DNA from: Nereocystis luetkeana
Taxonomy: Eukaryota; Sar; Phaeophyceae; Laminariales; Laminariaceae
Length of the DNA stretch: 64,000 bases
Direction of reading: 5' to 3'
Assembly (NCBI GenBank): GCA_031213475.1
Contig: JARUPZ010000007.1
Span: forward strand, 5,885,586-5,949,585
The notes under the pieces were generated by a model. It did no database searches. It worked only from the letters and a program-made list of their open reading frames with translations, and was not told the origin of the DNA. Position 1 is the stretch's first letter; the number at the start of each line of letters is the position of its first letter. The position numbers and the translations under genes were made by a program. Positions 1-64,000 of the stretch are shown here, in pieces.

Positions 1-2198
1 ATGTGCCGCGAACGTGGCGTGGTGTCGCATATAAGAAATTACGACATTGGTGTCGCAAATAGTATTCATTACCCTTAATAGTATTGATAGAGTGTCTGCG
101 CAAAATAAAAAGTATTGCGAATTTTGCTCATCTATTCCCTCGTCAGGGCCCATTTTAACGGGGAACGCTATTTGGAAATAAAATTTTAATTTTAATCAAT
201 TTTCATTTGATTTCGAAGAAAAAGCGTGCTTGTGTCCTATCGGGGAACAGCGTACTGTCGTCAATAAAAAAAAATATCGGAATAACCAGGAAGAACGCGC
301 CGCGTCACACAACGCCCAGCCGACAAACAGCGACGCCCGTAGACGTGAGCGAAGGTTTGTGTTGTCGCGTGCGCGCCGCCGCCAACCTATTTTTTTTATG
401 GTCGCGCAGGATAGGAAGCTATCACTCTCAGGGTGTCTTGGGTGGGCGGAGGGAGCCCTCAAGCGCCACGTGCGGAACAGCAGCGGTGATTCAGCTATCG
501 AGATCTCGAGCGTATCCTGCAGCTATCGAGATCTTGAGCGTATCCTCCTTTTTTTTGCTCTTTTGCTAGGTTTTCGTGATTGTTGGCCGATCGAGCAGGC
601 CGAAAAATTGGGATTGCGGCCGCCATGATTACTTTTGAGGCGCCACCGCCTGGGTACGATGTGCTATGGTGTGTGGGCGTGGGCGCGGCTATTGCTCCGG
701 TCACCTTCCGTTGAGATTCGCGTTTTATCGCCTCGATCGTGGTCACCCAAGCGGCCAAGAATCGCCACAGACTCCACCGAGGGTGTTGACCCACCATGAA
801 CATGCTACGTCAAGACGGAGGAACTCCCAAATTCCAAATTGAAACTAAAAAAATCACACGCACAAAGTCCCAAAATACTTTTCACTCGAATTCAAATTTT
901 CTAATTTGCCTGCTTGCTGCTGCTGTTGCAAGCGCGCGCACCCTTGCCGCCACGCTCTTTCTGATCTTGGTCACTACGACCCCTTCTTCGGGCAGAGAGG
1001 ACAACGAAGAAGGAGGGCGATATTCTTGTTGTGGCGGCGTTGCTTGCACAGCGAGTGTCAAGGAGTGCTAGCGCAAGTTAGATAGCACTTCTGCCTGTTG
1101 GTGCCTGCTGCTGCTTACTGCTGCTGCTGTGCTGCAATAATATTTAGCCATTTTTCGTCTCCGATTATGCGCATGCCAAAATGCTTTCGACTATTACTTT
1201 CCGACGGAAATCCTTAATACACGAAAATATTGTGCGCAGACACTCTAGGGTTCGTTATTTTTTAACCGGACGTTTTTTTTCGCGTTTCGAGGGAAATTCC
1301 CGGATTTCCGGGGGGGTTTTCGCGTTCCGCGGATTTTTTTTAGCCCGGCAAAATACCTACCTGGTACCTGGTAAACAATAATTTCCCGTATCGCGGAAAA
1401 GTCCCGCATCGTCGCAGAACATCGGCAGGCGCACCGTGTGTGCGCCGTGTTACCACCCGGCACCGCACAGGATAGATCAGGGTCATACCCAGGGTCATTA
1501 TCAGGCCGTGACTGGTCGCACAAAGCGCCGTGCACAACGAGAGCTCTATTTGTCCAGTCGACAGAGCCGACTCACCGACAAAGCCGAGATCAACACGAAA
1601 TCGCCAGCTACCGGTATTCCGATGTCGTGAGGGCTTTGTCGCGCCAGAAGTTGAGCTCGCGAGGTAGGGCGAGGCATGGTCGCCTCTCTATTAATAGGAG
1701 TCGGGGGACCTTTAGCGGCACGAACCAGCGGACGGCCTACGCGCGCGCCGCTGGTTTCGACGATCCGATCAGATGGACGAGCGTCGCAACCTCACGAAAC
1801 ATGATACCAAGCGATAATAGCACCCACCGCATTTTTTTCGCGTTTCCGTGAATTTTCCGCGAAACGAGAAAAAAAAAACTCCCTTGAACGACCCAAATAA
1901 TACTCGTAGACGTAAACCGCTGCAATAATTTGAATTTCGGGAGCTGCGTACCCTTGTACCCTGTATGCATCATATCTGGTCGAATTGAGACTGATACTGC
2001 TGTATTTTAGTATCCGACGACGTTATTATTACCCATAGTAGCCTATGCTTGCAGTGCGCATCACAACCGCCTTCATGACCTTAGGACTTGGCTACCCCGT
2101 AGCGTCGAGAGTAAACCCACGTATCAGGTAGTTAACAGCGGCCTCTGGCACAGACACGCCACAAAGGCGCCTGCCGCGGACACGTCACACTTTCTCAC
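1..2198. other. Non-coding stretch downstream of RAD51 exon 2
   Basis: I see no convincing exon on either strand here. I looked on the minus strand for the next RAD51 exon, which should follow the helix-hairpin-helix and lead into the Walker A region, and did not find it, so this is probably intron. A double TACCTGGTA motif lies at 1358-1373. Short motifs TATTAATA (near 1690) and TACTCGTA (near 1892) also occur. Confidence 0.4.
1358..1373. repeat. Double TA-CCTGG-TA micro-insertion
   Basis: Two overlapping copies of TACCTGGTA share the middle TA, giving two 7-bp CCTGGTA units after a TA. This is one member of a dispersed motif family described in the findings. Confidence 0.7.
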
Positions 2199-2524
2199 CG
2201 ATTCTACTGTGCAGTAGCCGGCCTCGGACAAGCGCTGAACATCGTTTCGATTAATCCCATGCGCCTCCAGCTCCGTGATGTGGTGGAACGCCGCAACGAC
2301 CTGCTGGAGCATGGAACGGGGGTGTTCTTTAGGCGCATTGGAGATGGACAGCAGCCGAGTCAGTGGTTTGTGATGTGGTGTTGTGCACCACTTGCTCTGC
2401 TACGACGAGTACTGCTGTAAATCATCAACTTTCAAATATAGGGAAAACGTTCACTTGCCTCTTCTGCGGCTTCGCCAGATTGTTGAACCTCCCCACTCTG
2501 TTGGATATCTTGTTGTGCTGACAT
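2199..2524 (-). CDS. RAD51: DNA recombinase RAD51, N-terminal part (two exons, partial)
   Basis: RAD51 forms the nucleoprotein filament that carries out strand exchange in homologous recombination. Only its N-terminus is here. Exon 1 (2524-2459) reads MSAQQDIQQSGEVQQSGEAA then EE. Exon 2 (2300-2199) reads VVAAFHHITELEAHGINRND and continues VQRLSEAGYCTVES, the helix-hairpin-helix DNA-binding domain of RAD51. The L-x-EAGY-x-TVES wording fits RAD51 better than DMC1. Both junctions are phase 0. The intron starts GCAAGT and ends CAG, so it is a GC-AG intron; exon 2 may start three bases earlier (2303), adding a Gln. Exon 2 ends at a good GTGAGA donor. The ATPase core exons were not found in the remaining 2.2 kb and must lie beyond the window edge. 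The gene is divergent from the armadillo gene at 2940. I am sure of the family from exon 2; exon 1 is inferred from phase and splice signals. Confidence 0.8.
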
Positions 2525-2939
2525 TTGAGGGGAGCTTGAGAAATCAACGCCGGTCTCTGCACTGCGGAGGGTAAGCTAAAGCGCTAGCGGAGGTAGGGTT
2601 CCAACTGCCAGGCTTCAAAGAAACGAAAAACGAATTCGTACACGGGTGTTCCAAACATATTGTTAGGCGTTTTTTCAAGACGACCGTTTCGTCCATATTC
2701 CTCGCATGATCGCATGATTGCATGTCGCAAAAATATCGTTTTTCGACATGTTGAACGTTCGTACGGTCGTATTGGTGTCCGTTTAGTTAAACAGATAGGG
2801 TAGGGCAGGAGGCCAGCACGTGCATGTCGGCTCCATATCTGCCGATTTGCCAATTTAGCAATCGATCTGTGTTGTTAGCTCGATCTTTTTCGTCGCGTTC
2901 TCGTTTGGAAGGAACGACGACGATTAATTTGCGGCAGCC
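2525..2939. promoter_or_regulatory. Divergent intergenic region, RAD51 / armadillo gene
   Basis: The two predicted start codons are 415 bp apart and point away from each other, so this stretch must hold both 5' UTRs and both promoters. I see no clear TATA box. Bidirectional control is an inference from spacing alone. Confidence 0.5.
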
Positions 2940-63015: not shown

Positions 63016-63173
63016 TACGATGTCGTGGATGTATTATATGGCTAAATTTTTGCCTGGTGGTATGGTGTGTTTCAGTATATAAGGCCCGTAAGGGTCGAAT
63101 ACGTCGTCCGAATATCATCTGTAACGAGCTCATATATCGGCCATTGGAAAGTGTTCGAAAATACAAGCCTTGC

Positions 63174-63211
63174 GGACAGACAGACAGACAGACAGACAGA
63201 CAGACAGACAG
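63174..63211 (+). repeat. (GACA)n microsatellite
   Basis: About nine uninterrupted GACA tetranucleotides. Confidence 0.95.
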
Positions 63212-64000
63212 ATTTGCATTTACCAAAACAGAGACTCAGTTCTACAAACTGAGAATTGACGCATGCTACGGTAGCGTGGCGAACCTGCAATGTTCTGAGA
63301 CTCGTCACATGAGGAGGTCGGTATATCAGCCGAAGACGGAAAAGTGTACGAAGAGGAATCCCATGGCCTACAGTAGGTCTGTATCGAACACGGTGGTAAA
63401 AACAATGTACGATACTGGGCACTGTAGTTCCTCAGTCGAGAGGCCCCACCAGTCCCAGAGATAGTTTGGTGTCGAAAGGTCGCGTATCACCAGGACCAGG
63501 AACACTGGATGAAGTGCCAGGTATAGCGTACGAAGTACCTGGTATGTTAATATGGTACTCCCTCTATAGCCCCCCCACTACACCTGGCAGGCAGTCAGCC
63601 TGCTTGGACGAGGAATCACTAGCCCTCTCTGCCAGAAGATATCCGGGCGAGGCAAGCAACTACAAACGTCAACGCAAGCAACCAGTGTGAGTGACCCAAG
63701 CAGAGCCGCAACCTATATACGTAGTCAGGCCCTAGGCCGCACGTGCTCCCCCGTCTTGTGACACGTATTACTTGGGAGGTCTATCTATACATAAACCATG
63801 GCTACCTCAGATTTCAGGGCAAACCATAGTCAAACCCCTACTTGAGATGTCCATCGGGAGCAATAGTCAAACCCTTTGTACTGGTCGTCTACCAGTACAA
63901 TACCGGCGCTCTCACAAAAACCTGAAATCAGGCTCAGGCTGACTTTCCTGTTCTGGGCACGTGCGAAAGCACACCTCCTTATGCTGGTCCCCGACAAGAC
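63212..64000. other. No gene recognised
   Basis: A TACCTGGTA occurs at 63536-63544. Short ORFs have no domain or splice support. Confidence 0.45.

Follow-up and report, generated by a model that had tools for sequence, protein, structure and literature searches.

Excision footprints are known as a kind of sequence, and the scar left by the transposon Sleeping Beauty reads TAC(A/T)GTA. Sleeping Beauty footprints equal the 3-nt overhangs that remain at the donor site (PMC7827188, in part), footprints of Tc1/mariner elements are quoted as 2–4 bp and the zebrafish relative ZB is reported to have a palindromic AT target preference (both PMC7913693, in part). The brown alga Ectocarpus carries 17 Mariner-Tc1 families with 11,912 copies, mostly non-autonomous, and one of these families has a 4.4-kb autonomous partner (PMC12477816, in part; the main text of this paper does not contain the words 'footprint' or 'excision'). 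Here we characterize the word TACCWGGTA (W, A or T) in a stretch of 64,000 nucleotides of the Nereocystis luetkeana genome (assembly GCA_031213475.1, contig JARUPZ010000007.1, positions 5,885,586 to 5,949,585 of the forward strand; hereafter, the window) and in the genome as a whole. The copies of this word are probably footprints left by the excision of one TA-targeting cut-and-paste transposon, now lost or rare, with CCAGG ends. As in Sleeping Beauty and Tc1/mariner, the TA target is duplicated and a central mismatch flanked by C/G would lie inside two TAs; unlike in those systems, the scar is 5 bp long (CCWGG), occurs ~180,000 times in one genome and has no resident donor in the sequence searched. 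The target preference around TA is symmetric, as reported for ZB, and TA-type DNA transposons are abundant in Ectocarpus; the present genome likewise has a 4.27-kb Tc1-like element. HIP1 of cyanobacteria is likewise a short palindrome that is hugely over-represented genome-wide; to our knowledge it is not a TA-duplicating insertion, whereas paralogous sequences show that the TACCWGGTA unit was inserted.

In the mechanism that we propose, the transposon would insert at TA, duplicating it, and later leave, and the repaired scar would read TACCWGGTA. The transposase would cut so that 5'-CCAGG remains as a 3' overhang on both donor ends; two such overhangs would match at four of their five positions, with A opposite A at the centre, and repair would yield TACCAGGTA in either orientation. 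A one-base slip in the pairing would yield an 8-bp variant (TACCAGGGTA/TACCCTGGTA). Within each scar, one TA would also lie at +6/+7 from the other, a preferred position, and the element could re-land in its own scars and build runs in 7-bp steps. The family would thus have hopped, left few copies and ~180,000 exact scars, and would now be extinct or rare.

TACCWGGTA as a 7-bp insertion at TA

All 38 exact copies that the original prediction had placed in the window were located. They form 27 singles, 4 doubles and 1 triple (32 runs), and the runs grow in 7-bp steps with a shared TA, as had been proposed. Dinucleotide-preserving shuffles of the window (n = 100) held a mean of 0.40 copies and at most 2, and none reached 38. 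The excess extends to the genome (465 Mb, 1,987 contigs), in which 182,395 copies—about one per 2.5 kb—stand against 1,744 of the reversed word, and 15,917 copies of the 16-bp double against 2 of its control; the double also matched in 9 stretches of a viral contig collection. A genome-wide frequency near expectation, which would have counted against the original prediction, was thus not what the counts showed. As TACCAGGTA and TACCTGGTA are reverse complements of each other, the even split of the window copies (19 with central A and 19 with central T) reflects orientation only and is otherwise uninformative. A reading of this balance as a product of mismatch repair was dropped, because strand symmetry accounts for it.

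The copies are scarce in long open frames. Among stop-to-stop frames of the window, which stand in for exons and exclude low-complexity frames, those of at least 300 amino acids hold none of the 38 copies (5.9 expected if uniform), those of at least 200 hold 1 (9.9 expected) and those of at least 150 hold 3 (15.7 expected; copies at 18593, 41892 and 56641). The ARM-like gene, over its whole span, and two spans resembling long interspersed nuclear elements (LINEs) in the window are free of copies. The original prediction had all copies outside predicted exons and LINE open frames; this is approximately right, density in the open frames of the window being lower rather than equal. A palindromic word, far above chance and scarce in long open frames, is also what would be expected of a protein-binding site, regulatory or chromosome-organising, under selection.

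In the empty-site test, each run was collapsed to a single TA and the joined flanks were aligned to all sampled sequence, with matches required to span 12 bp on each side; sites less than 60 bp from a locus end or beside N were dropped, as were self matches within 70 bp. The sampled loci used here and for flanks, paralog density, word enrichment and inverted repeats include four loci (L001–L004, ~12 kb) picked for holding a double, and this and later sampled-locus tests also include the transposase loci described below, whereas the 264-kb sample used for run lengths and short-word counts excludes L001–L004 and contains no transposase loci. Seventy-one comparisons were obtained from 18 of 150 query sites (47 ungapped and 24 gapped). 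The ungapped sister sequences have exactly TA in 37 of 47 cases, 2 of which (both from window site 41892) are poor AT-rich alignments, and another dinucleotide in the remaining 10. When collapsed and full forms competed, TACCWGGTA gave 35 matches to the collapsed form with exactly TA, 8 to the collapsed form with another dinucleotide, 5 to the full form and 49 gapped; the corresponding numbers for 600 random TA-N5-TA words were 11, 14, 244 and 185. Sister copies without the motif have one TA, so at each TACCWGGTA site 7 bp have been inserted at a single TA, namely CCWGG and a duplicated TA. The arrival of the word as exactly 7 bp with TA duplication, not by substitution, argues against a selected binding site. 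It also qualifies the earlier statement that no described element is just this: exact-string searches listed no described element of this sequence, but the word is probably a scar rather than an element.

The insertion test can fail, as two other enriched TA-flanked words were not insertions. TACAGCAGTA (0 exact, 0 other, 4 full and 5 gapped) and TACTCGTA/TACGAGTA (0 exact, 7 other, all from one site, 16 full and 2 gapped) were both rejected, and we accordingly no longer read all TAC...GTA words as scars. The word TACWGTA was mixed (6 exact, 1 other, 9 full and 18 gapped). In the sampled loci, TACTCGTA/TACGAGTA is strongly enriched (69 versus 12.2 expected), as is TACAGCAGTA (34 versus 1.3), and neither has exact empty sites.

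Target choice, runs and age

The target preference around TA is symmetric. Using 267 flanks of single units (two per site, not all independent) compared with TAs in general, we observed, outward on both sides, T or C at +1 (p = 9e-10), T at +3 (p = 1e-5), T at +6 (p = 3e-18) and A or T at +7 (p = 1e-19). These flanks showed no enrichment of C at +2 or of G at +4 and +5, so decayed doubles are not the cause of the preference. A unit places one of its TAs at +6/+7 from the other, which makes a scar itself a favoured target. The 15,917 adjacent pairs are ~12 times the 1,346 given by a rough random-TA formula (a figure equal only by coincidence to the number of places beside doubles mentioned below). 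Runs also lie close together: in 164 kb with 87 runs, 13 gaps are shorter than 100 bp, versus 5.3 for random TAs (largest count in 2,000 draws, 14); local hopping or uneven regions could be behind this spacing.

The orientation of adjacent units bears on whether the runs arose by slippage. The first 100 doubles listed, all from contig C1 and some from one triple, comprise 60 with equal orientation, 30 AT and 10 TA; the 30:10 split (p = 0.002) is the one predicted if T is preferred at +3. A 7-bp microsatellite or minisatellite, seeded widely and expanded by slippage, would fit the occurrence of runs of 2, 3 and 4 units in the 264-kb sample and the 60 equal-orientation doubles, and some slippage in the making of doubles is possible. 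Yet 119 of the 131 runs in that sample are single units, single units are themselves insertions at TA and slippage yields equal orientations only, so the 40 doubles with opposite units are beyond its reach. We regard a satellite origin as highly improbable.

The scars are mutationally decayed and old. There are 30,241 doubles with no more than one mismatch (control, 22), against the 15,917 exact ones, which gives a ratio of one-mismatch to exact doubles of 0.86 after subtraction of 698 cases estimated to be due to chance. For scars of a single age, this corresponds to ~0.054 changes per site and a decay-corrected total of ~295,000 scars. Such free decay, in place of the constancy expected of a binding site, adds to the manner of arrival and leaves selection for protein binding with very little probability. 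The sampled loci contain 166 copies in 261.7 kb without a paralog; where a paralog exists, there are 9 copies in 14.2 kb at 80–88% identity to the best paralog, 5 in 16.1 kb at 88–94%, 1 in 16.2 kb at 94–98% and 0 in 14.5 kb above that, a class made up largely of transposase loci fetched deliberately. With due caution about that class and about the one below 80% (see below), the element seems to have stopped moving before the youngest of the sampled repeats, which hold few copies of the motif, spread.

Decay and age also bear on programmed DNA loss. Ciliates carry out programmed elimination of TA-bounded internal DNA elements, and an assembly representing a processed genome, from which many such elements had been removed, would account for the TA boundaries, the small uniform scar and the absence of a visible resident donor. 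Fresh scars, however, should lack inherited mutations, whereas, of the doubles found when up to one mismatch was allowed, nearly half carry one, and the youngest repeats sampled hold few scars. We consider this explanation most unlikely.

Ends of the element and the search for a donor

The one-base variant is strand-specific. Across the genome, TACCAGGGTA occurs 11,422 times (5,725 + 5,697, a count that takes in a tandem array) versus 409 for its controls (195 + 214), and TACCTGGGTA occurs 1,578 times (780 + 798) versus 362 (185 + 177); slippage in the G/C run would produce both equally easily, yet TACCTGGGTA is far rarer. With a CCAGG 3' overhang on both broken ends, full overlap would give TACCAGGTA and a one-base shift TACCAGGGTA, whereas CCTGG ends would instead give TACCTGGGTA. 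Shorter words lean weakly to CCA over CCT ends relative to their own expectations in the 264-kb sample: TACCATGGTA 5 versus 0.4 expected and TACCTAGGTA 0 versus 0.1; TACCAGTA 39 versus 12.0 and TACCTGTA 16 versus 9.3; TACCATA 54 versus 33.7 and TACCTTA 13 versus 17.3. A 3-nt CCA overhang joined by one overlapping base would also give the main word; the 5-nt cut is therefore putative. Among the matches listed, seven copies of TACCAGGGTA at C1:1305185-1308353 are spaced exactly 528 bp apart in a tandem array.

A second word behaves in a similar way and fits a resident transposon. TATTAATA passes the insertion test (with exact TA in 20 comparisons, 5 other dinucleotide, 0 full and 12 gapped), its flanks carry G, T and A at +1 to +3 in roughly half of the 188 cases, and TACTATTAATAGTA, a 14-mer that often holds it, occurs 1,131 times genome-wide versus 1 for the reversed word. 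A 4.27-kb Tc1-like element (locus L025, 141-4410, contig C19) has ends TTACGGAGG, TA on both sides and a DDE_3 match (4e-12). Its counterpart on contig C7 (L026), read at the right end only, shares 99.5% identity with it over 4,252 bp, and the two loci have open frames of 437 and 493 amino acids. Ten genome loci have a DDE_3 match score equal to that of this element, which was probably active recently. At both ends of the L025 element, TTACGG lies next to TA, and TATTAATA would be the product of TTA ends such as these, two overhangs pairing at TA. A pogo-like element (L036, 611-2584) has a 542-amino-acid open frame, TA on both sides, ends CAGTACCGG and a DDE_1 match (5e-7), and lies precisely at the TA of a TACCAGGTA; on excision it would be expected to leave TACWGTA rather than TACCWGGTA.

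These observations bear on two explanations in which no larger element ever existed. An enzyme might write a 5-bp cassette straight into TA, for which the uniform product and the failure to find a donor would speak; but the strand-specific one-base variant looks like the joining of overhangs, TATTAATA, which fits the ends of a resident transposon, behaves alike, and we know of no enzyme that writes a 5-bp cassette into TA. We consider direct writing very unlikely. A bolder version, in which a TA-seeking enzyme writes a self-similar CCAGG cassette and prefers TAs beside an existing one, would make this the shortest mobile 'element', with ~300,000 sites, and we consider it very unlikely as well.

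The searches for a donor limit it, by a rough estimate, to some hundreds of copies or fewer. Profile searches of the genome gave 48 matches for PF03184, none for PF13358 at the default threshold and 30 in a loose search (30 candidates scored); a 597-amino-acid DDE_3 protein as query gave 61. Both DDE_3 and DDE_1 transposases are resident, and none of those read has CCAGG ends. The ends seen were TTACGGAGG (L025; right end only in L026), CAGTACCGG (L036) and likely GGACCGCAGTC (L028), and the remaining stretches of the 15 read showed no clear ends. Inverted repeats were sought in ~276 kb. In one scan, 8 seeds began with CCA and 3 with CCT (not viewed individually in that scan); the best inverted pairs in a second scan (16 of 20 bases) lay between motif-bearing words. 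A scan without words holding GGTA near the end gave none starting with CCA or CCT among the matches listed, and is blind to a donor starting with CCAGGTA. The hunt also listed 131 copies of TACCWGG without a following TA. The bases that follow doubles (100 of 1,346 places) are decay forms, CCAGGGTA variants and pieces of other repeats; TGTGTGTGTTCTTCACA, seen three times there, was rejected as a donor end, being the edge of another repeat.

Several results weigh against excision of a single transposon. No CCAGG-ended donor was found in 15 stretches around transposase matches (L025-L036 and L046-L048, which take in a minority of the PF03184 matches), in the inverted-repeat scans beside TA (~276 kb) or as a repeated end beside the doubles, a search blind to a donor with A as its seventh base; PF01359 gave no matches, and its control was also silent. 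The scar, at 5 bp, is outside the 2–4 bp quoted for Tc1/mariner footprints and so does not support membership of that group. A two-base shift showed no strand bias in the sample (2 versus 3 places, the three sharing one repeat context), and TACCAGTA for the most part does not behave as an insertion (1 exact, 3 other, 9 full and 4 gapped), so the trimmed forms lend weak support. Equal-orientation doubles are in weak excess (p = 0.057), sequence with a best paralog below 80% identity holds only 2 copies in 22.7 kb, and the youngest paralog class has the composition given above. We nevertheless hold excision to be the likely origin.

Three further transposase loci were observed. Locus L027 (1485-3278, contig C17) has a 597-amino-acid open frame with DDE_3 and no identical second copy among 61 matches; its nearest relative is broken (48%), terminal repeats were not found in it, and it possibly encodes a domesticated transposase. 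In L046 (C2:20045900-20052300), 16 listed 16-base words mirror about base 3116, indicating a large inverted repeat, with pieces of Tc1-like transposase on both sides and no TACCWGGTA within. Locus L035 carries a 1.49-kb inverted repeat (1-1491 and 3105-4595; 99.7% identical) with a DDE_1 match in each arm.

Exact-string literature searches returned no described element by title for TACCAGGTA, among the matches listed, and no match for the four 16-mers of the doubles. Genome-wide footprints as the sole trace of an element were not found by title or start of abstract, in a search that lay mostly outside subscription journals. As far as these searches reach, what looks new is that the scars of one family occur at one per 2.5 kb, are longer than usual and have no donor in sight.

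Sites in the window and implications

Within the window, empty sites are clearest for the singles at 29471 and 59132 and for the triple that starts at 60896. The single at 29471..29479 has two paralogs (L022 and L024, ~91% identical) with one TA and two further gapped ones, and the single at 59132..59140 has paralogs with exactly TA (5), CA (1) and a gap (1). The triple (60896..60918) lies in a short repeat whose sisters have a single TA in seven cases, no TA in one ungapped case and gaps in two; at the same place, one gapped sister has one unit (L011) and the other a mutated unit (L020). Paralogs of the single at 31607..31615 have exactly TA (2), TG or TT without gaps (3) or gaps (2). The single at 41502..41510, in an AT-rich repeat, gave three comparisons (two gapped, one AA and no exact empty site), that at 61896..61904 has one ungapped paralog with GA in place of TA, and that at 41892..41900, within an open frame of at least 150 amino acids, has the two poorly aligned TA comparisons noted above.

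The remaining sites are exact matches. The doubles are TACCTGGTACCTGGTA at 1358..1373, TACCAGGTACCAGGTA at 12634..12649 and again at 14416..14431, and TACCAGGTACCTGGTA, with opposite orientations, at 31018..31033. Singles lie at 14394..14402 (TACCTGGTA), 18593..18601 (within an open frame of at least 150 amino acids), 18875..18883, 20100..20108, 20923..20931, 27991..27999, 32016..32024, 32950..32958, 33578..33586, 37353..37361, 38760..38768, 39323..39331, 41340..41348, 41358..41366, 53451..53459, 54946..54954, 56641..56649 (within an open frame of at least 200 amino acids), 59702..59710, 60587..60595, 61072..61080 and 63536..63544. Two other features of the window were recorded. A LINE-like long open frame with an RVT_1 reverse transcriptase domain (42914-46339, strand −; 4e-12) is free of the motif, and a small open frame at 40035-40505 (strand −) had no match in a Pfam search and has a leader that resembles those of stramenopile plastid targeting, which would point to a stramenopile, perhaps a brown alga.

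If excision is the right explanation, the genome holds a base-resolution record of about a hundred thousand excisions by one transposon that has itself disappeared or become rare, and surveys that count resident copies would miss such a transposon. The strand-specific variant would make the ends of the lost element readable, and it could become possible to measure in nature how targets are chosen and ends repaired, with no need for the element itself. Insertions of 7 bp at such density are a large source of indels, and the history of a vanished transposon may need to be read from its scars.

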